From NCBI GenBank assembly GCA_021205375.1, contig JAJPXR010000220.1, forward strand, positions 5,589 through 39,145: DNA of 33,557 nt, read 5' to 3'. The position numbers and the translations under genes were made by a program. The notes beneath the pieces are model-generated. The model saw only the letters and a program-made list of their open reading frames with translations, was not told where the DNA came from and did not search any database. The stretch is from Clostridiales bacterium. GTDB taxonomy: Bacteria; Bacillota; Clostridia; Oscillospirales; Oscillospiraceae. Shown here piece by piece: positions 252 to 16,847 of the stretch; position 1 is the first letter of the stretch, and each line of letters opens with the position of its first letter.

Positions 252-2609
252 ATGCCTGCCCCCACCGGCTGCCCCTTCTGCCATTCGAGCAATATTGGGA
301 TTGGCTCTGAAAAAGGCCACTGCTTCTCCTGTAACCAAGATTTCCCCCTAACCGAACAGGAAACCGAAAAGGCAACGAACCCCCTGCGGCTGTTTCTCAG
401 TTACGGCCACACGGAGCACCCCATCTGCCGGATGGTCGCCGCCGCGCTGACCCAGCGGGGCCACGACGTCTGGTTCGACAAGGACAAGCTCCACGAGGGG
501 CAGAACTGGCGAAAAGAGATTGCCGAGGGGCTGGAGAAAAGCAACGGCGTGGTGGCCTGTATCTCCGACCACTACGTGCGGCCTCGCAGTGTCTGCCTGG
601 ACGAGCTGAACATCGCCATCGGCGTGACCCGGGGCGAACACGTCCTCACCGTTCTGCTGGGGGACGAGAGCATCGTTCCCGCCTCCCTCTGCTACAACCA
701 GTGGCTGGATATGCATGACTGGGAGGACCGGATGAAGGGCGACCCAGCGGCGTTCGAGCAGTGGTTCCAGGCCAATATGCGCAAGCTGTTCGCCGCTTTG
801 GAGACGGAGGACAACCGAACCTTTTCCGGGGCCATCCAGACGTTACAGGAAAAGCTACAGGTCTCCCCCAACACCAGCCGTCAGAGCAGTCTGCTGAAAA
901 AGCCCTTCGTGGGGCGGCAATGGCTGACGAATCAGGTGGTGGCGTGGCTGGACGACCCGAAGGGCGAACGCCTCTGTTTCCTCAGCGGGGACCCCGGCGT
1001 GGGCAAGAGCGCCTTCGCCGCCAACTTCACCCACTATAACCCCCGGGTGGCGGCGGCGCTGTTCTGCTGGGCCGGAGAGAACCGATTCAACGACCCCCGC
1101 GCCGTCCTAAAAATGCTGGCGTTCCTGCTGGCCTGCCGCATCCCGGACTACCGTCGCCGTCTGCTGGCACGGCTGGACGGGGAGGACCGGCTGGGCGAGT
1201 ACAACGAGCGGGAGCTGTTTCGCGTTCTGCTGGAGGAGCCGATGCACGGCTTGATCGACGGCGAGCGGGAAACCCTCTGCATCGTCATCGACGGGCTGGA
1301 CGAGGCCGGCACCGCCGAGGAAAACTTGCTGGCGGAGACGCTGGGACGCTATATGCCCCTGCTTCCCCCGTGGCTCCGGGTGCTGGTGACGGGCCGCCCG
1401 GTGGCGGCGGTGACGCAGTCCCTGGGCAGCGGCAGGCAGATGCCGCTGGATGGCCGGAGCCAGGAAAACCTGGCGGATGTGCGACAATACTTCGAGGAGA
1501 CCCTGCGGGACCGCTGCGCCGAAACCCCGAATTGGCAGGCGTCGCTGGATGAGCTGACCCGCCGTTCCCACGGCATCTTCCTCTATGCCGAGCTGGTGTG
1601 TCAGGGCATTTTGGCGGGGAAACTGGCCCTGACCGACTGGGACAAGTTCCCGGACGGCTTGCAGGACGCCTTCACCCGCTGGTTTCAGTGGTTTTTCCCG
1701 GACAAGCGGGCGTTTGAGGCCCAGTTCGCGCTGCCCCTGGGGGCGCTCTGCGCGGTGGCGGAGCCGCTGCCCCTGGAGGAGCTGCGCCGGGTCTTTGGCT
1801 GGAACGAGAGCCAGCTCCACCGGTTCCTCCGCCGCATCGACGTGCTGCTGAACCACGGCGAGAGCGTCTTTGGCAAGGAGACGGTCACTCTGTCCCACAA
1901 ATACATTGGCGAGTGGCTGACTGACCCCCATCTCAACAGCCTGTACTTCGTCTCTGTCAACGACGCGAAGGAGGCCATGGCCGGGGCGTTCTATGACCGG
2001 TTCCAAAAAGACCCGAAGGAGCTGACCGAGTTTGAGTCCCTGCACCTGTGTGAGCTGCTATTGGATTGCGGCAAAGCTGCGGAGTGGTTTGAGGCTGTGT
2101 TCAGCGGCAATCTTTGCTGGAACATCATTAACGCCGGGGACTACTGCCAGGAGTGGGGCCACTTGGACGAGGCCATGAAGTGTTATCGTTGCGCCCTGTC
2201 CGTCACGGAGCAGGGAAAGCGCATCTTTGAAAGTTTGGAGATGTTGCGGAATTACAGCGCGTGTGCCGAACGCATTGGCGAATTGGAACGAACGGCAGGC
2301 AACCGTGGAGCGGCTCTTGACTGGTACAAGAAATCTCTGGATATCCGGGAGCGGCTGGCGGAGACCTGTGACACACCGCTGTACCAGATGGATCTGAACG
2401 TCAGCTATGAGAAACTGGGCAATTTGGCGCGAGAGGACGGGGACTGGCTGACGGCCCGGGAGTGGTACGAAAAAGGACTGGACATTACGGAGCAGCTGGC
2501 GAAATCCCGAGGCATACCGGAGGACTGGCGGGATCTGAGCGTCAGCTATGAAAATATGGGCAACCTGGCGCAGGAGGAAGGCGAACGGCAGGCGGCCAGG
2601 AACTGGTAG
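252..2609 (+). CDS. Zinc-ribbon/TIR/NACHT/TPR NLR-like protein, N-terminal part (ends at an in-frame TAG)
   Basis: The protein has 785 residues up to an amber codon. Domains in order: a CxxC...CxxC zinc ribbon (C7, C10, C24, C27); a TIR domain (about 45-160) opening with LFLSYGH and carrying the CLDEL motif whose E118 sits where TIR NADases have their catalytic glutamate; a NACHT/STAND ATPase with Walker A GDPGVGKS (246-253) and Walker B ending at D347 followed by GLDE; then TPR helices from about 640. By family knowledge, such proteins sense a trigger through the repeats, oligomerise through NACHT and degrade NAD+ or make a nucleotide signal through TIR; bacterial NLR-like proteins of this kind are antiphage. 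The start is set by GAGGTGAT just before the ATG and by the promoter at 183-211. The frame continues unchanged to 4352, so this is the front of a 1366-codon gene. Domain calls are confident; the defence role is inferred. Confidence 0.85.
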   Translation: MPAPTGCPFCHSSNIGIGSEKGHCFSCNQDFPLTEQETEKATNPLRLFLSYGHTEHPICRMVAAALTQRGHDVWFDKDKLHEGQNWRKEIAEGLEKSNGVVACISDHYVRPRSVCLDELNIAIGVTRGEHVLTVLLGDESIVPASLCYNQWLDMHDWEDRMKGDPAAFEQWFQANMRKLFAALETEDNRTFSGAIQTLQEKLQVSPNTSRQSSLLKKPFVGRQWLTNQVVAWLDDPKGERLCFLSGDPGVGKSAFAANFTHYNPRVAAALFCWAGENRFNDPRAVLKMLAFLLACRIPDYRRRLLARLDGEDRLGEYNERELFRVLLEEPMHGLIDGERETLCIVIDGLDEAGTAEENLLAETLGRYMPLLPPWLRVLVTGRPVAAVTQSLGSGRQMPLDGRSQENLADVRQYFEETLRDRCAETPNWQASLDELTRRSHGIFLYAELVCQGILAGKLALTDWDKFPDGLQDAFTRWFQWFFPDKRAFEAQFALPLGALCAVAEPLPLEELRRVFGWNESQLHRFLRRIDVLLNHGESVFGKETVTLSHKYIGEWLTDPHLNSLYFVSVNDAKEAMAGAFYDRFQKDPKELTEFESLHLCELLLDCGKAAEWFEAVFSGNLCWNIINAGDYCQEWGHLDEAMKCYRCALSVTEQGKRIFESLEMLRNYSACAERIGELERTAGNRGAALDWYKKSLDIRERLAETCDTPLYQMDLNVSYEKLGNLAREDGDWLTAREWYEKGLDITEQLAKSRGIPEDWRDLSVSYENMGNLAQEEGERQAARNW

Positions 2610-4335
2610 GAGAAATACAATTATAAACATCTGAGGCTGGTGAAGGACCGGGGTACACCGCAGGACCAGCAGGATTTGAACTTCATCTATAACAAGCTGG
2701 CATATCTGGCATGGGATGACAAAGACTGGAAGGCAGCCCGGGACTGCTACGAGAAAGCTTTGGACATTGCGGAACAGATGGCAACGACCCGCAATGTCCC
2801 GAGCGACTGGGGAGATCTGTGCATCAGCTATAACAGCCTTGGCAACCTGGCGCGGGAGGAAGGGGATCGGCAGACGGCGTGGAACTGGTGTGAGAAAGCC
2901 CTGGAAATTGCAGAACGGCTGGTAAATACCAGGAAATCGATCGAGGATTACGACTATTTGGCAATCACGCTCCTTAGCCTGGCACATATCTCCGCATCAG
3001 AGCAGGAGTGTAAACGCCTGGCGCAGCGCGGCCTCGCTATTTCAGATAAACTGTATAAGCAAACTGGGCTGCCAAAGTTCCAGAAATATTTTGATGATTT
3101 CAACAAAATATACGGTCGTGCTGAAAGCGGCGCCTATGACCAGAAGGGCGATGCAGCGTTGGAACGCGGAGATTGGCAGGCGGCGCAGGGCTGGTACGAG
3201 AAAGCCCTGGAGGTTCGGAAACAACAGGAAAAGGCTTGCAGTACATCAGAGAATCAACGGAACCTGCGCGTTAGCTATTTTAAACTGGGCATAGTATCAC
3301 AAGAGGCCAGAGACGTGCAGACAGCGCAATTCTGGTATGAAAAATCGCTGGACAATGCGGAGCGGCTGGCGGAAAACAGTGGTACGTATGAAGATTATCA
3401 TGATTTGATTGTCAGCCTCTGGGGACTGTCAGGTGTGTGTTCCCCTGAACAGGAGCAGGTGCGTATGGCGCAGCGTGCCCTTTCCATTGCAGAAACACTG
3501 TATAAACAAAACGGAGAACCCAGGTATCAGTCGCTGGCTGAAAAGGCCCACGAGATGTTGGATGCCCTTTTAAACAGCGTTCACGCAGTGAGCGTCAACT
3601 ATGACCAACAGGGCGATTCGGCGCTGGAACGCGGAGACCGGCAGACGGCCCGGGAGTGGTACGAGAAAGCCATAGGAATCTGGGAGCAGCTGGCAGAAAT
3701 GCGTGGCACGCCGGAGGATTGGCAGAACCTGATCGTCGGCTATCACAAACTGGGCGATCTGGTGAAGAAGGACGGCGCCCTACAGGCGGCCCGGGGCTGG
3801 TACGAGAAATCCGTGGACGTCCAAACGCGGCTGGCGGAGACCCAGGGCGACTTAGACGACTGGTGGAACCTGAGCGTCAGCGATGAGAAGCTGGGCGACC
3901 TGGCACTGGAGGATGAAAACTGGCAGACAGCCCAGGACTGGCACAGGAAAGCCCTGGCAATTCGGGAACAACTGGTGAAAGCCCGGGGTGCGCTGGAGGA
4001 CTGGCGGGGCCTGAGCATCAGCTATGAGCGGCTGGGACATTTGGCGTGGGAGAACGGAGACCGGAATGGGTGCCGGGAGTGGCACGAAAAATCACTGCCC
4101 ATTGTTGAACAACTGGCAAAGTCCAGTGGTACTATTAAAGCATACGACAATTTGACAGCTACGCTTTACATACTTGCCATTGCCTCTGACGCACAGCAGG
4201 AGCGACGGAACTATGCGCAGCGCGGCTGCTCCATTGCAGAAACCCTGTACAAGCAAACTGGGGACCCCAGGTATCAGTCGTTTATGGATGGGTTCCACAA
4301 GATACTGAAACCCAAGCGCCGTGGATTCTTTGGCA
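2290..4335 (+). repeat. Tandem TPR-coding repeats with a higher-order module
   Basis: A unit of roughly 120-150 bases recurs through the gene. Three longer landmarks share a special ending in which an AQRG or AQRA helix leads to LYKQ and then a short (Y)Q segment. They lie near 2958-3110, 3405-3575 and 4150-4320, so groups of TPRs appear to have been duplicated as blocks. Confidence 0.7.
2607..2609 (+). other. In-frame amber codon inside a TPR repeat
   Basis: The codon before is TGG and the one after is GAG, giving NW-stop-EK. Neighbouring repeats read WYEK at the same place, so one change from a Tyr codon (TAC or TAT) to TAG explains it. The downstream repeat aligns to its neighbours without a gap and in the same frame. 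Confidence 0.9.
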
Positions 4336-4352
4336 GCTTTTTCACTCTTTGA
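2640..4352 (+). pseudogene. C-terminal TPR part of the NLR-like protein, downstream of the amber codon
   Basis: This is 570 codons of tandem TPR-like repeats, in the same frame as the TIR-NACHT gene. Many units follow the pattern G-D-x-QtA-x-x-WYEK-aLdI-x-E-qLa, then a short loop with GTpeDW and a second helix with vSYekLGdLA. Such arrays are usually the ligand-sensing part of NLR-like proteins. The first possible start after the stop is the GTG at 2640. It has only a poorly spaced GAGG in front, so independent translation is doubtful. The open frame has not decayed over 1.7 kb, so the stop is recent, suppressed or a base error. It could be annotated as a separate TPR protein, but I regard it as the back half of one gene. 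It ends with TGA before a shared terminator. Confidence 0.75.
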
Positions 4353-4440: not shown

Positions 4441-5010
4441 TCACCCTTCTCCCTCCGGCCCACAGAGCCGGTAGTTTTCCTCAAACTGGGGGCGGGCCAC
4501 AAAGTTGAAGCTGATGTCCGTAATTTGCCCCGCCGCGTCCCGCTGGGTCGTATACAACACCAGTGTGGCATCCCGGGCCGCGCTGAGGGGCGCGCCCCAC
4601 AGGTGGGCGTTGAAGTACCGCGCCGGGTCATTGGGGTTCAGCACCAGCCGTCCCGTCTCCAGCAAAAATTGCACTTCGGGGCAAAGCTCCTCGTCCGCCT
4701 GCCAGATGGCCACCGGGCGGCTGCGCTGTTGGTAGTCGTCCCCGGCGATGTGGCGGTGGTTCGCCAGGAAAAACGCCCGGTCGTTGGGGTAGGGGTAGTG
4801 GCGGCCCTCCACCGTGTCCACCTTGAAGTAGTCGCCGGGGTGGGCCAGCTCCCCCGCGCCGGAGGCCGCCTCCTGGCTAAACAGCTCATAGAGGCCGTCG
4901 GGCCGCAGACGAATGGCCCCCTCCCGGAGCAGGTTCTGCTCCATGGCGCTGTGTTCGCCCAGACAGTAGGCTTTTACAGTTTTGTCCGTCTTTTTGATTG
5001 CGTATCTCAT
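4441..5010 (-). CDS. PGDYG-like hypothetical protein, second gene of the RyR operon
   Basis: The 189-residue soluble protein has no signal peptide or membrane segment. Its middle has a PGDYFKVD motif followed about 10 residues later by a YPYPNDRAFFLANH segment. This resembles the small PGDYG-type domain (a GDY/GDW motif, then YP, F and Y) found in bacterial and phage proteins of unknown function; the match is by eye only. The C-terminal half, rich in aromatic and charged residues, is not recognised. AAGGAGT precedes the ATG. It lies 53 bases downstream of the RyR gene on the same strand with no terminator between, so the two are probably co-transcribed and may act together. No enzymatic residues could be assigned. 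Confidence 0.65.
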   Translation of the reverse strand: MRYAIKKTDKTVKAYCLGEHSAMEQNLLREGAIRLRPDGLYELFSQEAASGAGELAHPGDYFKVDTVEGRHYPYPNDRAFFLANHRHIAGDDYQQRSRPVAIWQADEELCPEVQFLLETGRLVLNPNDPARYFNAHLWGAPLSAARDATLVLYTTQRDAAGQITDISFNFVARPQFEENYRLCGPEGEG

Positions 5011-5063: not shown

Positions 5064-6938
5064 TCAGGACGTCACAATGCGAGTATCCTTTCCTTTGTCA
5101 TCCTCGCCCAGTTCGTCGTAGTGGACCAGGAGGGGATGTACCTTCGCCAGGTCGTCTCTCGGCTCACCGAAAACGTATCCCTCCGAGCGCATATAGACAT
5201 TCCACCGCTTGTGTTCCAACTCCGCCAGGTGTTGTTTTTCCTCCGGCGACATCTCTTTTTCCGTTTTGCCCGCCCCCGGTATGCCGCGGGTGATCCGCGC
5301 TTTTTCGTGGATCGCGCTGGCGATGGAGGAGCGGTAATTGTATTCGTAATTCCGGAACGTCTCTTCCAGCTTCTTCTTTTCTAACGCCGCTAGTTCCGCT
5401 TTTTTTCGCTTCTCTTCTTCTGACTCCATTTCTTCCGAGGGCCCTTCTTCCGAATCCGACTGCTTCCCATACCTGAAATGGATATTGAGGGCCTTCTCCC
5501 GCAACTCGGAGTTGAGGACGGTGTTCTCGCTCCAGGCGGAGTCCAAATCGCCGATGAAGTCGATTTCGTACGCTTGCCCCTGGAAGTTTTTCAGCCCGTG
5601 CAGGGCGTTCTTTTTTTCGCCGCTCTGGACAATGGCCTTGATTTTGGGGGTGTTGTGGCTGCGCGCAAACAACATGCGCAGATAGGCAGCGGTCTCGATG
5701 TTTTTGGCGTCGTCCCCCAGGGCGACGAACACCCAGGTCGTGTCGCTTAGCTGGCTGATCGCGTCGGCAAACGCCTGTGAGCCGACGGCAACTCCCGGAT
5801 GGATGGTGATGCGGTACTCCGCCTCCCCCGGACGGAAAACGCCGTTGTATTGGTCGGACAGCAGTTCCGGACACTGGACCCGCAGCGTTTCCTCTGCCAG
5901 CGGGTCCTGGTCAAAGGCGGTGATTTGCAGGTGATAGCCGTCCATCTGGCAGAACCAGCTCAGGGCTTTGAGCAGATTGCTTCCGCACCGGCCCAGGCCA
6001 ACCAGCACCACCGAAATCAGCTTGCCGTTCTCTGTCTCCCTGGCGGTGGTGAAAAGCTCGTCCCCGCTGTCGTAGAGAAACCGGTCGATGAGGGAGCGGT
6101 CCGGGTCTATCCTGCGGACCTCCACGGTTCCCTTCTCGGCGGAGGAGAGCAGGAGTTCCCCCTCCAGATTCGTGGACTGTACATATAAGTGTGTATTTTC
6201 CCGTTTTTTGTACCGATTGAGCAGCGACAGCGCCTGTGTGGTGTTTTTGCCCTCGTCCTCGCTCAGGAGGAAAAAGTACAGCGCCTTCTTTTTGCTGTGG
6301 AACTCGTACGCTATGGCGCAAATATCCCGCTTCAGCAAAATCATTTTGTTCCGGCGGGCCTCCTCCGCCAAGGCGAGGTTTTCTTCTGGCCCCTGGTCAG
6401 AAACGCCTGTAAAGACCACCACTCTTTTTTCGTTCTTGTTGAGGAGGTCTTTCGCCAGCGTCAGCGACCTTGGGTTCAGCTCAGAGAAAACATACAGCTT
6501 CCGGTTGCGTCCGGCCAGCAAATGGAGCATGGCGAAAATATTTTGAAACAGGGAGAGGACTAAGCTAAAGGTCAGGAGCGGTGCAGCCACAAACAGGATG
6601 GCGATATAGACCGTGTATGCGTTATAAAGGAACCCGCATGTACGGGGGACCTGCTCCGTCAGGAAGGTATAATCCCCGTTTAAGAAGAACAGACAGAGGG
6701 TGTGGTAAATCGACAGGAAAATCGACTTGAAGATGCACAGCGGCTCCGCAGAGAGCGCTTCCCAGTAGACGGGGAAAAGCAGGACGGACGCAGAGCAAAA
6801 TACGGTTGCAATCAGGATATAAAGCGGGGTGAGCAGTTTTGTCATCGCGTTTTTCTGTTTCGAACGCCTGAACGCGCTCACCAGACCGACGACCAAAAGG
6901 ACGGCCGATATGGAAAAACATACTTGGAACCGGAACAT
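5064..6938 (-). CDS. Membrane protein with two TrkA-like Rossmann domains and a C-terminal RyR domain
   Basis: The 624-residue protein begins at the ATG at 6938, chosen because AAAGGGGA lies at good distance; an ATG 14 codons upstream lacks a site. About four membrane helices fill residues 3-22, 33-57, 66-87 and 105-130. A first Rossmann-like region follows (about 146-290). A second starts with VVLVGLGRCGSNLL, a GxGxxG dinucleotide-binding loop near 314, and has an acidic residue ending the next strand (TAFDQDP), as in TrkA-N/RCK domains. A charged linker with coiled-coil character (490-530) leads to a RyR domain (about 565-620) with HKRWNVYM, GYVFGEPRDD and HPLLVHYDEL, the signature of ryanodine-receptor repeats also found in bacteria. 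Bacterial RyR domains have been proposed as nucleotide-derived ligand sensors in conflict systems. No potassium-channel selectivity filter is evident. Role inferred: ligand-gated membrane effector or sensor. Confidence 0.8.
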   Translation of the reverse strand: MFRFQVCFSISAVLLVVGLVSAFRRSKQKNAMTKLLTPLYILIATVFCSASVLLFPVYWEALSAEPLCIFKSIFLSIYHTLCLFFLNGDYTFLTEQVPRTCGFLYNAYTVYIAILFVAAPLLTFSLVLSLFQNIFAMLHLLAGRNRKLYVFSELNPRSLTLAKDLLNKNEKRVVVFTGVSDQGPEENLALAEEARRNKMILLKRDICAIAYEFHSKKKALYFFLLSEDEGKNTTQALSLLNRYKKRENTHLYVQSTNLEGELLLSSAEKGTVEVRRIDPDRSLIDRFLYDSGDELFTTARETENGKLISVVLVGLGRCGSNLLKALSWFCQMDGYHLQITAFDQDPLAEETLRVQCPELLSDQYNGVFRPGEAEYRITIHPGVAVGSQAFADAISQLSDTTWVFVALGDDAKNIETAAYLRMLFARSHNTPKIKAIVQSGEKKNALHGLKNFQGQAYEIDFIGDLDSAWSENTVLNSELREKALNIHFRYGKQSDSEEGPSEEMESEEEKRKKAELAALEKKKLEETFRNYEYNYRSSIASAIHEKARITRGIPGAGKTEKEMSPEEKQHLAELEHKRWNVYMRSEGYVFGEPRDDLAKVHPLLVHYDELGEDDKGKDTRIVTS

Positions 6939-7012
6939 TTCTCTGTCCCCTTTCGCACCCATTTTTTGCGCCCGGAGCAATGGCGCTCATGCAGGATTTG
7001 CCGCTTCGATTT

Positions 7013-7041
7013 ATTCTACCACATTTGCCTGCCGATTGCAC
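7013..7041 (-). promoter_or_regulatory. Candidate extended -10 promoter of the RyR operon
   Basis: On the minus strand TGG-TAGAAT forms an extended -10 (box 7013-7018). A weak -35 GTGCAA lies 17 bases upstream (7036-7041). The position, about 75 bases before the RyR start, is suitable, but the -35 match is poor. Confidence 0.4.
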
Positions 7042-7293: not shown

Positions 7294-8733
7294 TTATTTC
7301 CTTATCTTTTTCATTACCATGTCAATTCCTTCAAACAGCATACTGTCTCTTGTGATGAGCAGTTCCAGCGCATACACAGCAACGCCCACCGCTATCTGAA
7401 TAAGCAGCACCTTGACGCCCTTCCCCAAAACAGTACCAATGAAGTAAACGACAGCGCCCATGATCCCGCCGCAAATGAAATATTTGATCGCCGGCAGGAA
7501 GCACTTGCAAAGATTCATCTGTTTTCTGATCAAAAATGCCTGAACGACCAAAACCGAAAGCTCCGCACATACGGTAGCAATCGACGCACCGATGGCGTCA
7601 AACCGCACAATCAGGACCCAGTTCAGCACAAAGTTGACCACGGCCCCTGTGAAAACAGAGATCGTATAATATTTTTCCTGCTTCGTGGGGAGAAGATACT
7701 GCTTCCCGATCACGTTGCTCATTGCAATGAAGATCAGAATTGGCGATATGACGACCATCAGCACCGCAACTTCATCGTAACCCGGTCCGAAGAAAATCGG
7801 CACAAATGTCTTTGCCACGCCGCAGATGCCAAAGAGGATCGCAAAACCAAGCATGAAAACAAAGTGAAACGCTTTCTTGATGCTCTTTTCGATCACATCC
7901 ATTTTTCCCTGCGCGAACGCATAGGACATTGCCGGGAGCATCACCGTGCCCAGAGAAGTGACAAGCATCAGCGCCACTTTGATGATTTTTGACGCCTGCG
8001 TATAATAGCCGACCTCATCGATATTGGAAGCGAATACACCCAGCATCGTTTTGTCCAGCACAGTGTATACTTCTGTCGCAAGCTGCGGCAGGAATAAAAT
8101 AAGCGACGGTTTCAAATGCCGGAGGACGTCACGGGGATGGATAGCAACCTTCACCAGGTACTTTGGAAGCGATATCCACAAGCTGATATTTCCAATAAAA
8201 ATCGGAAGCGTCAAACACATGGTATAAATCAGCACATCTTCCGACGACTTCACGAATAAAAAGACTGCAACGATTCCAGCCAGCTTTATGATCGTGTTTC
8301 GAATGACGGTTACCTTGAAATTTTCCAGTCCCATAAAAAACCAGGAAACATCAAAGGCTGTGGCGATGATTTCAATCATCAGGATCTGATAGACAGATTT
8401 ATACTCTGTACCAAGTCCAAATATAAGGAAATAAATCAGAGCAAATAGGAATACGCCTGCACAGCGCAGCAATGTGACCTGCCAGAACACCTCAGAACGC
8501 TTTTTCTGATCGTCTCTCGCAAAGGCGATTTCCCGCTGTCCGTAAATCGTCGTACCGACTGCGCCGGCAAGCATGAAATAGGTGGCAATAGACTGCGCGT
8601 AGCTGTAAATGCCAATGCCCGTAGCGCCCAGAACGCGGGAGACATATGGCGTCGTGATCAGTGGCGCGATCAGCGCCAGGACCTGGTAGGATGTGTTATA
8701 GATGTAGTTTTTTATGACGCTTGGCTTTTTCAT
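7294..8733 (-). CDS. wzx: Wzx-type polysaccharide flippase
   Basis: The 479-residue protein is hydrophobic throughout, with about 12-14 membrane helices. It has the start typical of the polysaccharide-transport MOP/MATE superfamily: a short basic N-terminus, then NYIYNTSYQVLALIAPLITTPYVSRVLGATGIGIYSYA (the family's TPYVSRVLG region). The role is to flip lipid-linked repeat units across the membrane for polymerisation. It is the last gene of the operon. Its ATG overlaps the TGA of the polymerase fragment (ATGA), which argues for translational coupling; only a weak AAGGG precedes it. Length is normal for the family and nothing looks broken. The exact glycan substrate cannot be told from sequence. 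Confidence 0.9.
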   Translation of the reverse strand: MKKPSVIKNYIYNTSYQVLALIAPLITTPYVSRVLGATGIGIYSYAQSIATYFMLAGAVGTTIYGQREIAFARDDQKKRSEVFWQVTLLRCAGVFLFALIYFLIFGLGTEYKSVYQILMIEIIATAFDVSWFFMGLENFKVTVIRNTIIKLAGIVAVFLFVKSSEDVLIYTMCLTLPIFIGNISLWISLPKYLVKVAIHPRDVLRHLKPSLILFLPQLATEVYTVLDKTMLGVFASNIDEVGYYTQASKIIKVALMLVTSLGTVMLPAMSYAFAQGKMDVIEKSIKKAFHFVFMLGFAILFGICGVAKTFVPIFFGPGYDEVAVLMVVISPILIFIAMSNVIGKQYLLPTKQEKYYTISVFTGAVVNFVLNWVLIVRFDAIGASIATVCAELSVLVVQAFLIRKQMNLCKCFLPAIKYFICGGIMGAVVYFIGTVLGKGVKVLLIQIAVGVAVYALELLITRDSMLFEGIDMVMKKIRK

Positions 8734-9140
8734 TGTAAGACCCTTCGCTTTTTTCTACTCCGTTGCAGGGACGAGTTCCTATTGGATAACAGGTAAATCC
8801 CTAAAATAATTACAAATGGATTGTACGCAATATCAATAAGGTACTGATTTATAATACTGGACACCGCAATCAGCACGATTATTATCGACAATTTGAGTTT
8901 TTTTTCCAATGTCACTTTTCTTGCAATATAGGTGTATGCAATCAGCATGATCGCAAATAAAATAACACCGTAAATCATAATAATCTGCAAATAGGATGAA
9001 TCAATATAAGTTGTTCCTATCTTCGTATCATAATCATAAATTTTGTACCCGTTCCCCTGCATTTTGATGGATTGACCGAACAGAGTAAATCCATACATGT
9101 CAATCACCTTTTTACCAATTTTCAGACGATTACTAAACAA
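8730..9140 (-). pseudogene. wzy: Wzy-like polymerase, C-terminal part after an in-frame TAG
   Basis: This is 136 codons in the same frame as the upstream part. It contains an FSNRLKIG...YGFTLFGQ stretch, typical of the periplasmic loop before the last helices of O-antigen/EPS polymerases, followed by three membrane segments and a basic tail. The nearest possible start after the stop is a TTG directly behind it with no ribosome site, so separate translation is unlikely. It overlaps the flippase start by 4 bases. It is AT-rich compared with its neighbours, as wzy genes often are. Confidence 0.7.
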
Positions 9141-9953
9141 CTATTCATCAAGCAAAACCCAGAAATGGCTTGAGCTAGAATACAAATAAGTGATCCCCAC
9201 AGAAAAAATGCCGCAAACCAACGTAACCCATTGCGTCGCAAAGGCAAACCGTTTACTTTGAAAAATTTTTCTCTTGTAATCATACAAAAGGAACAAAATT
9301 AACGTTGCTAAAATCATCAGCTCCGAAAGTCTCGCATTACAGTATCTATCTAAAAAAGCTATGATGAAAATATGAATAATAACATCCAATAACTTCATCT
9401 TATGCTTTCTAATATAATGGTACGCGAGAATCAAAAAGAACACATGCGCTGCAAAATCCGTAGAATAAACGATTCCAAAAGAATAACGGACAGTTCCTGT
9501 ACTTGGCCGCACCGTCGAATAATTGACGATAATTCCTGACAAACTACAGAACATTGCAATTAAAAGATAAATTGTGCCTAAAATCAAATATGTCTTAACA
9601 ATTTTTTTATCATCCACACCACGGCAACCCACGGCAAGCAAAATAAAATCCAAAAGCGTTGCCGTGCTGCTCGAAAATATGGAAATTGCAGCGAACCCCA
9701 CCAAAAGCGCAATCACAGATAATTGCTTAATGTTATAACGGTCAAGAAATGCACATTTGACGAAAATCAGGATGACAGAGAAAACTCGCACCACATTAAG
9801 GAGCGATGAGATATTCATTACCCCCTTAAAGGTGGTTGTGTTATAAAAATCACACGTAAAAAGCAGGAAAAATGCCAAAAAATATGTCACATCTTTCGCT
9901 CTCAGGGACAAAGAGATTTTCCAAGCCGAGGGCTTTCTAACTGAAATTTCCAT
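9141..9953 (-). CDS. wzy: Wzy-like oligosaccharide repeat polymerase, N-terminal part (ends at an in-frame TAG)
   Basis: The 270-residue hydrophobic protein has about 8 membrane helices and a soluble loop. The start is placed at the ATG at 9953 because AGGTGA lies six bases upstream; a TTG two codons earlier is less likely. Position in the operon (between a glycosyltransferase and a Wzx), topology and the downstream in-frame segment identify a Wzy-type polymerase, which joins lipid-linked repeat units outside the membrane; the family has little sequence conservation. The intact frame (8730-9953) would give 407 residues, a normal size. TAG at 9141-9143 falls within ...LLDE-stop-LFSNR. As written, the loop and last helices would be missing and the product probably inactive. 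Confidence 0.75.
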   Translation of the reverse strand: MEISVRKPSAWKISLSLRAKDVTYFLAFFLLFTCDFYNTTTFKGVMNISSLLNVVRVFSVILIFVKCAFLDRYNIKQLSVIALLVGFAAISIFSSSTATLLDFILLAVGCRGVDDKKIVKTYLILGTIYLLIAMFCSLSGIIVNYSTVRPSTGTVRYSFGIVYSTDFAAHVFFLILAYHYIRKHKMKLLDVIIHIFIIAFLDRYCNARLSELMILATLILFLLYDYKRKIFQSKRFAFATQWVTLVCGIFSVGITYLYSSSSHFWVLLDE

Positions 9954-10065
9954 GCTCAATCACCTACTATCAAATCGCCAAAGCAAACTATATCTATATC
10001 TCTGTTGATTTTTCCCCGCAATTTGCCTTTCGGTTTTCTGATTTTAAGGATCATATTCTCACACT

Positions 10066-11112
10066 CTATCTGAATCTCATCTTCAGCTTGGCATAAAGCT
10101 CCAATCCGAACAAAAACTTCGCCTTCATACAAACAGCGGAATACTTATGCTGGTCCTCCAGGTATTTGATCTCGCAGTTCCTGATGGCCGATGAAAACGG
10201 CTCTTCCCCCAGCGTTTTTTTCAGCTCCGCATACCGTTCCGACCTGGTTTTCGGATTCTTGGGATTGAAAAAGTATTTGCTCAACTGGGATGTCAAAAAC
10301 GCCACCTCTCGGTTGGCTTCCGCAACCACAAAGGTGTGGTCTTTTCCGGTCTCTGCAATAAACCTTCGCACAAGTTCACTGTTTCGTTTCAGGATGTCCA
10401 CGGAGACCGGTTTAAACGCATGGGTCAGCGAAGACCCAACAATGCGGTAATTGTACGTATGTTCATCGTTGTAATAAAACTTTTTAACGTGGTTCAGAAG
10501 ATATAAGCTGTAAACGCCATCGTCAAACACGCCCTTGGCGTAGGGGTCAAACCGGATGTGGTTGTCCTTGATGATGGACAGCTTGACAAATTTGCCCCAC
10601 GGCGCGGCATATCCGTTCGAAAGGCCCTTCACATAGTAAGGGCTGAATTTATGGCAGAGGACATATTTTTGAATGCTCTGGATCGTCTCTGGGTCGTCTG
10701 TAAAAAAGATTTGTGAAAACTGGTGAAGGCGTTTCTGATAAGTATCCGCCATAATGACGCAATCGGACATGATGCAATCCGCACCGGTCTGCTCCGCATC
10801 GCGCATCAGCTTCTCACAGGCGTCCAATTCGATCCAGTCATCGGAATCGACAAAATACGCCCACTCGCCGCTTGCGGCGTCAATGCCCGTATTTCGTGCC
10901 TCAGAAACACCGGCGTTCTTCTTGTGGATGACCGTTACCCTTGCGTCCTTCGCCGCGTATTCATCACAAATCTGAGGACAGTTGTCCGGTGAACCGTCAT
11001 CGACCAGGATCAACTCGAAATCCGTGTAGGTCTGTCCAAGGATACTATCCACACACTGATGAATGTATTTTTCTACGCCGTAAACCGGAACGATAAAGCT
11101 GATTTTTGGCAT
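10066..11112 (-). CDS. GT2-family glycosyltransferase
   Basis: The 348-residue protein starts at the ATG at 11112, which has GAAGGAGT in front and begins MPKISFIVPVYG as GT-A family 2 enzymes do. Visible motifs are ILVDDGSPDN (sugar-nucleotide binding), KKNAGVSEARNTGID, and the metal-binding DSDD. It should move a sugar from a nucleotide donor onto the lipid-linked acceptor at the inner face of the membrane. It is the only glycosyltransferase of the operon besides the initiating transferase, so the repeat unit is either very short or partly built by genes elsewhere. It ends with TAG followed by 112 gene-free, AT-rich bases before wzy. Confidence 0.88.
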   Translation of the reverse strand: MPKISFIVPVYGVEKYIHQCVDSILGQTYTDFELILVDDGSPDNCPQICDEYAAKDARVTVIHKKNAGVSEARNTGIDAASGEWAYFVDSDDWIELDACEKLMRDAEQTGADCIMSDCVIMADTYQKRLHQFSQIFFTDDPETIQSIQKYVLCHKFSPYYVKGLSNGYAAPWGKFVKLSIIKDNHIRFDPYAKGVFDDGVYSLYLLNHVKKFYYNDEHTYNYRIVGSSLTHAFKPVSVDILKRNSELVRRFIAETGKDHTFVVAEANREVAFLTSQLSKYFFNPKNPKTRSERYAELKKTLGEEPFSSAIRNCEIKYLEDQHKYSAVCMKAKFLFGLELYAKLKMRFR

Positions 11113-11212
11113 CTTGTTAGACTCCTTCAATTGTTTTTTGCCCGTCATTGCAATGGGATCACATACCGCTCTCCCATCAGGGTTTGATCGAAACCCGACT
11201 GTAAAAGCAGCC

Positions 11213-12121: not shown

Positions 12122-12165
12122 GAAACTTTACTCCTGATACATTTTGGATTCTTTGTAAAACCGAT

Positions 12166-13470
12166 TTATTGCCCCCGATGAGCAAAAAGTCTCTCCGGCT
12201 CCATCTTGACCACCATGTTTTCTCCCTTATCGTTCAAAACCGTGATGTGCTCATTTAAATAGGCAATATCCTCTGCCATCTGTTCCCGGCTGTCACACAT
12301 CATGACAAAGCGGATCATCAGTTGCCGGAGCGTATCCCCATTTGGCGTTTCTGTCCCAACCGGATACCGGCTCTCATACTCGATGACACTCGGCGTATGG
12401 TTTACAGCTTGTTCCAGGCCCTCAATCATCCCTACTTTGCCGCCTTTCGCCACAAAGGACACAATGCCACAGCATTTCCCCTTCATATAAGGGTCCTCTT
12501 TCTCCGGGCAGAAGGTGACGCTCTTCCCAAGCAGGGCGTGTTCCACAAGCACGTGCATATAATTCACGCCGTTCGTTCTCGCCAAAAAGCGATATGGGGC
12601 CTCTCCCGCCGAGCGCAGCCCCGCCTCAAAAATGTGAAATCCAGTTTCCGGGTCATACATCCCCTGAATGAACAGCACACCGTTTTTCATCCCCAGGCTC
12701 CTGCACAGGCGGAGCATGGGTTCATTCACTTGCTCCATAAAAGCGTCCAGGAACAGGGATGGAAACACACGTGCGGCGGGGATCGTTGTTACGTTTCCTT
12801 CATGAACAGCCACGGGATAACGGTTATCCATGCAGGACAGCGTCGGCACTCCGTTGCTTACCGTATAATGCGCGGTAAACTCTTCGCCCTTTACAAACTC
12901 TTCGACGATGATTTTTCCGCAATTGGAATGGGAAAAGGAATCTCCTTCCGCCTCCGTCAACTCATCCTCATTCATGCAGATATGTACCCCGGCAGATGTG
13001 GAAGCGTCCACCGGTTTGATGACAGCGGGATATTGGATGGTCTCTAAAACCGATTCCGGCAGCTTCTCCCCTGTAAAATAGGTATGCGGACACGGCACGC
13101 CGTTTTCTTCACAAAGTCTGCGGAACTGGTCTTTGCTCTCTACGCTATCCCACTGTTCTTTCGTACAATAAAATGAAAGACCATATTTTTCGGAGAGCGC
13201 CATCGCGTTCAGCAGATTAAATTCGCTGATGCCTGCCAGAACCCCGTCAACATGTTTTTCTTCGATGAGCTTGCTCAACGCCTCCAAATCGGCTGTGCTG
13301 ATCAGGACCGCCTCATCTGCGACCCGCTTGGCAGCCGAACGCTCTGGCGGATAGTAATCCGCCACTATTACATGTGCGCCATTCTCCCTCGCATATTGGA
13401 CAATATCAGTCGCTCCTACGTTGGAGCCGAGGACCAACAAGGTTTTCCCCTGAAAAAGCTGATTATCCAT
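12166..13470 (-). CDS. ATP-grasp carboxylate-amine ligase-like protein, third of three
   Basis: The 434-residue protein has an N-terminal pre-ATP-grasp domain (LLVLGSNVGATDI, then IVADYYPPERS). The ATP-grasp core follows with AVIKPVDASTSAGV (nucleotide-binding lysine and loop), IIVEEFVKGEEF and, near the end of the core, the IFEAGLRSAGEAP segment. Family members activate a carboxylate as acyl-phosphate and join it to an amine. It is the most divergent of the three neighbours, with a longer C-terminal part. AGGAGT precedes the ATG. The substrate is unknown; its place in a glycan operon suggests amide-linked decoration of an amino sugar, which is inference. Confidence 0.8.
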   Translation of the reverse strand: MDNQLFQGKTLLVLGSNVGATDIVQYARENGAHVIVADYYPPERSAAKRVADEAVLISTADLEALSKLIEEKHVDGVLAGISEFNLLNAMALSEKYGLSFYCTKEQWDSVESKDQFRRLCEENGVPCPHTYFTGEKLPESVLETIQYPAVIKPVDASTSAGVHICMNEDELTEAEGDSFSHSNCGKIIVEEFVKGEEFTAHYTVSNGVPTLSCMDNRYPVAVHEGNVTTIPAARVFPSLFLDAFMEQVNEPMLRLCRSLGMKNGVLFIQGMYDPETGFHIFEAGLRSAGEAPYRFLARTNGVNYMHVLVEHALLGKSVTFCPEKEDPYMKGKCCGIVSFVAKGGKVGMIEGLEQAVNHTPSVIEYESRYPVGTETPNGDTLRQLMIRFVMMCDSREQMAEDIAYLNEHITVLNDKGENMVVKMEPERLFAHRGQ

Positions 13471-13518
13471 TCAGAATTACTCCTATTTTCTTTTCTAATA
13501 CGATAAAATGCCTTGCTT

Positions 13519-14715
13519 TTACTGAACCACAACCTGTATGTGGTCATATATATGGTTCACGGTCTCATTCATTTCATCTTGATTATCAAACCTAAGCACC
13601 AATGTCCCAATCGCAAAATTTGCCGCTGTGAATACATGAACTTCCTCTCCCGCTTTAACCCACAGATCCGTCTGATATAAATGAGGACGCAGCTTTTCAT
13701 CTGTCAGAAGTCTAACAAACTTGCCATTCTTATCGCTGTGCAAAACGATCTCCGCCCAGAATCCATCATACACGGGATCGGTCATAGGCATCACTTCGTC
13801 TCCAACTGCCGCACGAACAGCATTCTTGATTAATTCCTGTCCTGTTGCGTATTCCAGCACTTCTGCCAGACGGTTGCCACCGCCTCTTGGCGAACACTCC
13901 ATTATATACGGCTTCCCATTTGCTCCTTGCCGGGCCTCAATGTTATAAATTGAGGTTTTCAGATTCAAGAGCTTTATCAATCTCTGGATCTCGCTGCGGA
14001 GGGTATCCTGGATTTCCTGCGGCATTTCACAGGGCCATGTGTATGCGCATGGCGCATAAGGATTTTCAGCATTCAAATCAAACTTCTGGTTATTAAACGA
14101 TGCAAACACCAACTCGCCATCTATGCTAAAGCTATCTGTATCCGTCGAATCGCCTTGCTTTTCAATAAACTCTTCAACAATAAACTCGCTAGAAAGGGAA
14201 TATTCCAAGGCATTTACGATTGCACCTTTCAAGGCATTTGGATCATCTACTCTAGTGACGCCTTTACTCCCGGCAGAATCTGTAGGCTTAACGATAACTG
14301 GCCAACTAAAATCATAGGCCTCTTTCAGGGCTTCCTCCAGGGATGTATATCCTTTTGCTTTTGGGACGTTAAACCCATTTTCGGTCAGAAAATTTCGGAA
14401 CAATGCTTTATTTTGCATGATTCTTACTGACTCATACGGATTTGTCGGAAGTCCGAGCTTCTCCGCGACATAAGCTGCGGTCACGACACCGGGATCACAT
14501 GCAAATGACATAATCCCGTTCACCTGTAACTCCTGCGCTAAAACCAGAACCGCTTCCTTATCAATGATGCTGACATTATGATACTCGTCCGAATATTTAT
14601 GCGCATAATTATCAGGCAAATAGTCACAGGTAATCGTGTAATACCCCAACTCATGCGCTGCTTTTATCACCGGCCGAAGATATCTTGATCCGCCAAGTAA
14701 CAGCACTTTTTTCAT
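13519..14715 (-). CDS. ATP-grasp ligase-like protein, second of three
   Basis: The 398-residue protein starts at the ATG at 14715, chosen because GGAGG lies eight bases before it; an ATG five codons upstream would overlap that site. It opens MKKVLLLGGSRYLRPVIKAA, then has YDFSWPVIVKPTDSAGSKGV (ATP loop), FIVEEFIEKQ and the metal-binding region IMECSPRGGGNRLAE. This is the carbamoyl-phosphate-synthase/D-Ala-D-Ala-ligase-like ATP-grasp fold. It is clearly a paralogue of the next gene upstream, with shared opening, spacing and core motifs, so the pair arose by duplication. Partner substrates may differ. Cytosolic; substrate unknown. Confidence 0.83.
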   Translation of the reverse strand: MKKVLLLGGSRYLRPVIKAAHELGYYTITCDYLPDNYAHKYSDEYHNVSIIDKEAVLVLAQELQVNGIMSFACDPGVVTAAYVAEKLGLPTNPYESVRIMQNKALFRNFLTENGFNVPKAKGYTSLEEALKEAYDFSWPVIVKPTDSAGSKGVTRVDDPNALKGAIVNALEYSLSSEFIVEEFIEKQGDSTDTDSFSIDGELVFASFNNQKFDLNAENPYAPCAYTWPCEMPQEIQDTLRSEIQRLIKLLNLKTSIYNIEARQGANGKPYIMECSPRGGGNRLAEVLEYATGQELIKNAVRAAVGDEVMPMTDPVYDGFWAEIVLHSDKNGKFVRLLTDEKLRPHLYQTDLWVKAGEEVHVFTAANFAIGTLVLRFDNQDEMNETVNHIYDHIQVVVQ

Positions 14716-14772
14716 GCCGCGCACCTCCATTCATAAGAATAGAGGTCTTCGATCAATGGGGTAGCGGCAATA

Positions 14773-15996
14773 TCAACGATAACTAGGAGCAGTACCCCCC
14801 CCCTGGACAATTTTCACATCTATAGATTGATTTATATTCTCCAGCATAAAATCCATTTCCTCCTGATTTTTGAACTTCAAGAAAATAATTCCGATCGCCT
14901 TGGCTGCATTGTCGAAGTATTCTACAGGGTCGCCCGGCTTCTTGTACACACATTCTTTCACGATATGTTCTTTCAGCTCTTCCGAATACTCGATTCCTTC
15001 GAAAGCGCCATTTTCCGCTGTGTGTAGATTGTGGGTGGCATAATACAACGTCCCTTTGGTTTCCTGGATGTCGATTGGCATCCCCATAGCAACGCGCACC
15101 GACATCTCAACCACATCCGTGTCAAATATCATACCCAGCAGATCGGGGATCATGTTCCCGCCGCTCCTGGGGCCAATGTCGATGGGCCACACTCTGTCAT
15201 TTTGATCGACGACCAACTCCACGTTCATCGGACCGGACACAATGCCGAGCTTATCGACCATCCTCTGCAAAGTGTCTTTCACATGTTCCGTATCCACTTC
15301 GCTTAACAGCAAAGGATAACTTTTCCCTACCGGGACCAATGGATTCACACGGTTGTCCCTGTGGCAGTTCATAAGGCCCCATTGGATCACCTTTCCCTCA
15401 TATACAAAGATGTCTCCGCCGATCAGGTACTTATGCTTCTTTTCAATATACTCTTCCACGATCAGGCGATGGGTTCTTGAAAAGGAAAATGCAAATTCCG
15501 CTGCCTGCGACAACCCGTCCCAACTGTGAAGCACGGTTGCTCCCTTGCTCCCGGAAGAGTCAACAGGCTTTACAATGACCGGAAGGCGATAGCGGCAGAT
15601 GTCCTTCTCAATTTCCTGCTGCGCTGCATAGCCGTTCGACACTGGCGCACAAAAGCCGTTTTCCTGCAAAAATCGCCGGAACTTATCCTTATTACACAGG
15701 ATTTGAACAGATTCATACGGATTCCCCGGCAGTCCCAGCTTCTCCGCCACATACGCGGCGGTGGGCGCCGCCGGGTCGGAGGCGTAGGCAAGGACGCCGT
15801 CGATTTTTTCCTTTTCTGCCACTTTCAAAACGGCTTCCTTGTCCGTCGTGCTGACCAGATAAAAGCGGTCCGCCGCGTACTGCCCCGGATTATCCGTGAG
15901 ATAATCACAGAGTACCGTGTAAAAGCCCAGTCTCTTTGCGGTCTCGATTGCAATGACCTGCTGCGCAGACCCGCCGAGTAACAGTATCTTTTTCAT
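14773..15996 (-). CDS. ATP-grasp ligase-like protein, first of three
   Basis: The 407-residue protein begins MKKILLLGGSAQQVIAIETA. It carries RLPVIVKPVDSSGSKGAT (ATP loop), LIVEEYIEKKHKYL and the metal-binding DIGPRSGGN segment, so all core ATP-grasp elements are present. It is a close relative of the gene at 13519-14715. Its start overlaps the stop of the sugar transferase gene (ATGA), with GGAGAAAAGTGA before the ATG, so the two are translationally coupled. It should make an acyl-phosphate-dependent amide or peptide bond; the amine acceptor might be the amino sugar made by the aminotransferase two genes upstream. Confidence 0.83.
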   Translation of the reverse strand: MKKILLLGGSAQQVIAIETAKRLGFYTVLCDYLTDNPGQYAADRFYLVSTTDKEAVLKVAEKEKIDGVLAYASDPAAPTAAYVAEKLGLPGNPYESVQILCNKDKFRRFLQENGFCAPVSNGYAAQQEIEKDICRYRLPVIVKPVDSSGSKGATVLHSWDGLSQAAEFAFSFSRTHRLIVEEYIEKKHKYLIGGDIFVYEGKVIQWGLMNCHRDNRVNPLVPVGKSYPLLLSEVDTEHVKDTLQRMVDKLGIVSGPMNVELVVDQNDRVWPIDIGPRSGGNMIPDLLGMIFDTDVVEMSVRVAMGMPIDIQETKGTLYYATHNLHTAENGAFEGIEYSEELKEHIVKECVYKKPGDPVEYFDNAAKAIGIIFLKFKNQEEMDFMLENINQSIDVKIVQGGGTAPSYR

Positions 15997-16847
15997 TCAC
16001 TTTTCTCCATGCCTAGTTCCGCAAAGGCCCGGTCAATATACTTCTGCTCGACCCCGTCCAGGTTTATGACCCGGCCACAGGTGTCGTACCCCATAAACGT
16101 CCCGATTTTGACATTGGCTCTGGCAGAAGCATTCTTTCGGTTGAGCGCAAATTGCACCAGGCGAACCATCATCTTACAGTCGGTCAGAAAACTGACATGC
16201 TCGATGTACCAAACGTCGTTATCCAGCTTTTCCTGCCATGTCCACACGTGGTCAATGGCCTCATGCGGCGGACACTCCAAACCGGGCCTTACGGAGAGCC
16301 GCGCCTTGTGCCTGGCATTATATCGGCCAAGGTATTCCGGCGGCAATGGCCGCGGCCCGATCAGGCTCATGTCGCCCTTCAACACAGACCAGAAATTCAA
16401 CAGCTCGTCCAGGGAAGTTTTCCGAACGAACCTGCCCCATTTTGTCACACGCTGGCCAGGCGGGAGCAGTTCTCCCTTTTCATCCACTTCATTCGTCATG
16501 TTGCGGAACTTGACGATTTTAAACGGTTTCCCGTTTCTTCCGGTCCGCTCCTGTAGGAAAAACAGCGGCCTTCCCACGTCAAAGAAGGTAACGATCCCAA
16601 TGACAAAATTAATCGGCAGCGTGACGATCACAGCAAGCAGCGAAACGATAATATCGATCAGCCTTTTTATGTATTTGGAATAAATGCCTTGCCTTGGATG
16701 GACTTTTTCCAGCTTTGCATTTATTTCCGGGAGGCGCTCCTCCGCAAGCCAATCTGCGATTTGCCAGCGCATCGCTTTGGTCAGCTCTGCCCTGTCGTGG
16801 TGTGGCGTCTCTGTTACGGCAGTCGGCCCCATTCCTTCTGTTTCCAT
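15993..16847 (-). CDS. Initiating sugar-phosphate transferase (bacterial sugar transferase family)
   Basis: The 284-residue protein has an N-terminal extension of about 55 residues, one membrane segment (LIDIIVSLLAVIVTLPINFV region) and the phosphoglycosyl-transferase core: PLFFLQERTG, FKIVKFRNM, TSLDELLNFWSVLKGDMSLIGPRPL. By family knowledge it moves sugar-1-phosphate from a nucleotide sugar to undecaprenyl phosphate and starts the repeat unit at the membrane. A C-terminal part of about 90 residues beyond the usual core (from about 200, with paired aromatic residues and DVWYIEHVSFLTDCK) is seen in the PglC/WecA-unrelated EPS subgroup. GGAGGATAA precedes the ATG. It is the second gene of the operon. 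Confidence 0.88.
   Translation of the reverse strand: METEGMGPTAVTETPHHDRAELTKAMRWQIADWLAEERLPEINAKLEKVHPRQGIYSKYIKRLIDIIVSLLAVIVTLPINFVIGIVTFFDVGRPLFFLQERTGRNGKPFKIVKFRNMTNEVDEKGELLPPGQRVTKWGRFVRKTSLDELLNFWSVLKGDMSLIGPRPLPPEYLGRYNARHKARLSVRPGLECPPHEAIDHVWTWQEKLDNDVWYIEHVSFLTDCKMMVRLVQFALNRKNASARANVKIGTFMGYDTCGRVINLDGVEQKYIDRAFAELGMEKSE

Follow-up and report, generated by a model that had tools for sequence, protein, structure and literature searches.

The closest described proteins belong to the clan of bacterial polysaccharide polymerases and O-antigen ligases (Wzy; PF04932; BP-Pol families), whose members have many helices, one large loop, a conserved Arg and Asp, and a wzx neighbour in a glycan cluster (PMC10920833). 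The roles proposed in the ligase/SEDS/polymerase clan are binding of the lipid diphosphate for conserved Arg residues and activation of the acceptor for a conserved acidic residue or His (PMC10920833). Disrupted polymerase genes are known. P. aeruginosa wzy mutants, including one with a premature stop, have one-unit O-antigen and are resistant to phage (PMC7065532), and in E. coli ST131 wzy genes are split by frameshift (PMC7382476).

The window, which is the whole stretch of 33,557 nucleotides analysed here, contains a Wzy-type gene from a Clostridia draft genome. It resembles the members of the clan in all four features, but a TAG codon interrupts it ahead of both the second Arg and the Asp, and its match to Wzy_C is below the curated cut-off. 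As in the P. aeruginosa premature-stop strain PAO1w-1 and in ST131, the polymerase gene is disrupted and the remaining cluster is kept. While those two are Gram-negative LPS systems with measured phenotypes, the present case is a Clostridia capsule-type cluster known from sequence alone. It is most likely an ordinary recent nonsense (loss-of-function) allele of wzy and not a new mechanism. Probably, one recent nonsense change interrupts wzy, and no other Wzy-type polymerase gene was recognised in this genome.

The wzy frame and its internal stop codon

When 31 other genomes of the genus were searched, one was found to have a homologue of the whole wzy frame. This is Clostridiales MAG MI.B2_1, referred to as the sister (contig JAJQEV010000051.1, wzy at L007:8007-9215). 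The features on which the comparison depends are as follows.

7294 to 8733, minus strand: wzx flippase, intact (PF01943, 110 bits; 89% amino acid identity to the sister over 479/479 residues)
8730 to 9140, minus strand: downstream part of wzy, 136 codons and the natural TGA (constrained; 77% amino acid identity to the sister)
9000 to 9002, minus strand: invariant Asp in an alignment of 10 homologues, residue 320 of the read-through frame, equal to D313 of the sister; absent from the truncated product
9126 to 9128, minus strand: invariant Arg in the same alignment, residue 278 of the read-through frame, equal to R271 of the sister; absent from the truncated product
9141 to 9143, minus strand: in-frame TAG, codon 273 of wzy (a sense codon in the sister, no indel)
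9144 to 9959, minus strand: upstream part of wzy, 272 codons from the TTG at 9959 (66% amino acid identity to the sister, dN/dS 0.117)
10066 to 11148, minus strand: family 2 glycosyltransferase, intact (PF00535, 128 bits; 92% amino acid identity to the sister)
15993 to 16847, minus strand: initiating sugar-phosphate transferase (Bac_transf), intact (PF02397, 165 bits; 87% amino acid identity to the sister)

An earlier sequence-only reading of this DNA had noticed a TAG between LLDE and LFSNRLKIG, after which the frame continues to a natural C-terminus overlapping wzx by 4 bases. Both observations hold. The frame has 409 codons and, read from 9959 to 8730, exactly two stops: the TAG at codon 273 (minus-strand context WVLLDE-TAG-LFSNRLKIGKK), which is the sole internal stop, and the natural TGA at codon 410. 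The latter ends at 8730 while the ATG of wzx is at 8733, and the two genes share 4 bases. An in-frame ATG exists two codons inside the TTG start. The open frame after the TAG is not due to chance, because under a first-order Markov model with local composition 136 codons stay open in only 0.035% of trials. The gene (window 8730-9959) is also the AT-rich low point of the window, with about 37% GC compared to 50-63% across most other DNA of the window. Low GC is common in polymerase and flippase genes.

Homologues of the wzy gene

The sister gene is uninterrupted, encodes 402 amino acids, and is 70% identical to the wzy product described here. The alignment between the two is free of gaps across the TAG and along almost the entire downstream part, and the sister has a sense codon where the TAG is found. 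The two loci, which come from the same genus, are alike in the GT2-wzy-wzx gene order, the 4-base overlap with wzx, and the lack of any indel around the stop. They differ in that the sister gene has no internal stop and the cluster departs elsewhere, at window 12134-14828.

Across the family (301 genomes), ten more homologous places were found (22-27% identical), all of them open throughout. L008-L010 and those of the ten places whose ORFs were read out (L013, L015-L018, and L020) encode single proteins of about 380-420 residues, with one of 628. The sequence-only reading had named a polymerase normally encoded as two proteins as an outcome that would refute it. This was rejected, as every homologue found is one open frame. 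Since both the same-genus homologue and the ten distant ones are uninterrupted, the wzy family is not normally made of two proteins. The gene has what characterises a nonsense pseudogene, a premature stop where the frame of its relatives is uninterrupted.

Within the cluster, Wzx, the glycosyltransferase, an epimerase, one ATP-grasp enzyme, the initiating transferase, and an aminotransferase are full length and match the sister. Three ATP-grasp ligase-like genes exist in a row at window 12166-15996 (minus strand) in this Wzx/Wzy-type cluster. For window 12134-14828, which covers two ATP-grasp genes, only short pieces match the DNA of the sister well. At the corresponding place the sister has one ATP-grasp gene and an unrelated gene of 322 amino acids, and the flanks are well conserved. 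Judged by this comparison, window 12134-14828 is a swapped cassette.

Identity of the gene product

The gene had been taken for a Wzy-like polymerase, and this assignment appears correct from its position (initiating transferase ... GT2-wzy-wzx), a weak similarity to Wzy_C, and a membrane topology with a large loop. It is found in a glycan cluster together with Wzx (PF01943), GT2, and Bac_transf genes in the same orientation. From hydropathy, the product has 8-9 helices and one loop of 66 residues. The features of a polymerase, i.e., many membrane helices, one large loop, and the invariant Arg and Asp, are present. The Pfam Wzy_C profile (PF04932) gives a match to residues 209-338 if the two halves are read as one, but none with either half alone. 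This match is weak (23.2 bits, E-value 6.6e-5) compared to the curated cut-off of 31.7. With a Wzy_C score below the Pfam cut-off, assignment of the polymerase role depends in part on where the gene is located.

The intact sister Wzy has no Pfam match at E-value 0.001, and no match was obtained with Wzy in a PDB profile search. Structure prediction from four sequences gave a pLDDT of 45 and a PDB fold search of that model returned nothing significant; both were left unused. No other Wzy_C or EpsG genes were found in the genome, and two further polymerase profiles found nothing, with weak controls. As the genome is 95% complete, a second polymerase could be absent from the draft.

Constraint downstream of the TAG and age of the stop

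Compared to the sister, dN/dS is 0.117 before the TAG and 0.148 past it (bootstrap 0.077-0.268). These ratios are rough because parts of wzy are close to saturation at synonymous sites. In the first 60 codons past the TAG, dN/dS is 0.057 and amino acid identity to the sister is 90%. No frameshift has accumulated downstream. Judged by these ratios, selection has acted on the region past the TAG during all or the larger part of the time since the split from the sister lineage. From this constraint it follows that the stop is either very recent, an artefact, or without effect. Constraint of this strength fits an error or functional readthrough as well as it fits a recent mutation.

It is rather unlikely, but deserves some weight, that the TAG is a consensus error or a minority variant in a fragmented draft, and that wzy is intact in the living organism. 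The draft consists of 262 contigs (2.48 Mb), and it is the one genome of the species. Full constraint past the TAG with no second lesion is also what is expected for a gene intact in life. However, random errors should strike conserved genes more often, and in the 111 gene places that this genome and the sister have in common, wzy alone of the otherwise intact genes is interrupted by a stop in its middle. Moreover, the other interrupted genes seen are accessory, and some have deletions or replaced ends that are impossible by base error.

These shared places come from a comparison of about 716 kb of the genome with about 1.2 Mb of the sister. A scan for interrupted frames using composition only was too noisy, and this comparison was used instead, together with a trained codon model. 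A stop was found within the alignment at 8 of the 111 places. By inspection, six of these have the stop at the start codon or ahead of it, and the other two are a GNAT remnant and wzy. A TGA flagged in a short-chain dehydrogenase (L155) was dismissed since it is located upstream of the start codon. Base errors look rare in this assembly because, apart from wzy, no otherwise intact gene at these places has a mid-gene stop. As single-base damage to conserved genes is rare, random error is argued against moderately.

Possible readthrough or restart

Another possibility is that the TAG is read through or suppressed (by a suppressor tRNA, pyrrolysine, or programmed readthrough) and full-length Wzy is made. 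Besides the constraint past the TAG, this would be consistent with the in-frame TAG of another gene in the window, which encodes a TIR-NACHT-TPR protein, and with the incomplete tRNA set of the draft. Several observations make it very improbable. RF1 is present (508 bits), and no PylS above its cut-off was found in the genome. The RNA after the TAG has no unusual structure (z -0.5). Interruptions are not confined to TAG, as HsdR has a TAA. Among the tRNAs found in the incomplete draft set none has a CTA anticodon; this last point is weak because the set is incomplete.

There are 14 TAG-ended genes with a reciprocal best match in the sister, and 12 of them stop where the sister gene does (within 15 residues). 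The sister uses TGA or TAA in 8 of the 14. The two exceptions are wzy and the GNAT remnant. By these comparisons, TAG is a normal stop in this genome. Genome-wide recoding of TAG and pyrrolysine were rejected on the presence of RF1, the gene ends, and the absence of PylS above its cut-off. A further idea, that the lineage keeps amber-interrupted alleles (wzy and TIR-NACHT-TPR) expressed at a low level via a suppressor tRNA missing from the draft, as bet-hedging in surface and defence, is held to be extremely improbable. Phase variation by repeat slippage or inversion was rejected, as positions 8900-9400 have no direct repeat and only one imperfect inverted pair of 11 bases.

Alternatively, Wzy could work as two polypeptides, the downstream half being restarted after the TAG and the pieces assembling in the membrane. 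A possible TTG start exists immediately after the TAG, and an in-frame ATG about 15 codons past it has an AAAGGTG-like sequence in front. However, this ATG and the sequence before it are plain coding sequence in the sister gene, which is intact. All wzy homologues are single proteins, and the cut falls within the large loop and the Wzy_C region rather than between domains. We regard the two-polypeptide arrangement as having very little chance of being correct.

Predicted truncated product and its expected consequence

The reading preferred here remains a recent nonsense allele. The TAG is located 16 residues into the 66-residue hydrophilic loop, before the last two membrane helices as predicted from hydropathy, and the invariant Arg (R271 of the sister) is five residues past the stop. 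Translation would halt at codon 273 and give a membrane protein of 272 amino acids. By analogy with the clan, the Arg and Asp after the TAG may be the equivalents of its conserved Arg and acidic residues. The truncated protein would have neither the second conserved Arg, the expected binding site for the lipid diphosphate, nor the conserved Asp, which is expected to activate the acceptor. The last two helices and the greater part of the large outer loop would be missing as well, and polymerisation would not take place. Because all of these parts are gone, the 272-residue product should be inactive.

With the transferases and Wzx intact, repeat units would still be synthesised and flipped. They would then be attached singly, for which three LCP transferases in the genome are available, or pile up on the lipid carrier. 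The LCP family is known for attaching glycans to the Gram-positive cell wall. The likeliest state of the glycan is thus predicted to be single-unit attachment or lipid-linked accumulation. In the sequence-only reading, loss of the polymerase was expected to switch the surface from polymer to single units and to change phage receptors and immune exposure. A changed glycan and altered phage-receptor or immune exposure are plausible, the effects on glycan and phage by analogy with the described P. aeruginosa mutants.

If the stop is real, it adds a natural example, from an uncultured lineage of Clostridia, to the cases of polymerase loss in a surface-glycan cluster. The strain would then be predicted to have surface glycans of single units and possibly a change in phage adsorption. 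Glycan types inferred from draft genomes need checking for interrupted genes.

Other interrupted genes

The TIR-NACHT(NPHP3_N)-TPR gene (window 252-4352, plus strand) has its in-frame TAG at 2607-2609 and stops at codon 786. Past the TAG, its frame continues for about 580 more codons with the same TPR array, and a homologue from the same genus (G001, L197) is uninterrupted at this position. Near this gene, a protein of 638 amino acids is encoded at window 5064-6980 (minus strand). It has weak TrkA_N and RyR matches below the curated cut-offs, and no defence family matched it in the profile search.

Elsewhere in the genome, the type I restriction subunit HsdR (L074, contig C21, 5663-8815, plus strand) has one in-frame TAA at 7016, with HSDR_N, SWI2_SNF2, and domain 3 found on both sides of or across it. 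A short gene in L183 (contig C251, about 4533-4545, minus strand) has a frameshift and is one frame in the sister. The GNAT-like remnant (L169, contig C36, 8160-8639, plus strand) has its 5' part swapped for unrelated DNA and contains in-frame TAGs; it is 81% identical to the intact gene of the sister. A UDP-galactopyranose mutase remnant (L184, contig C252, 10731-11384, plus strand) has an in-frame TAG, and its middle is apparently missing. Therefore, another surface-glycan gene has decayed in this genome.
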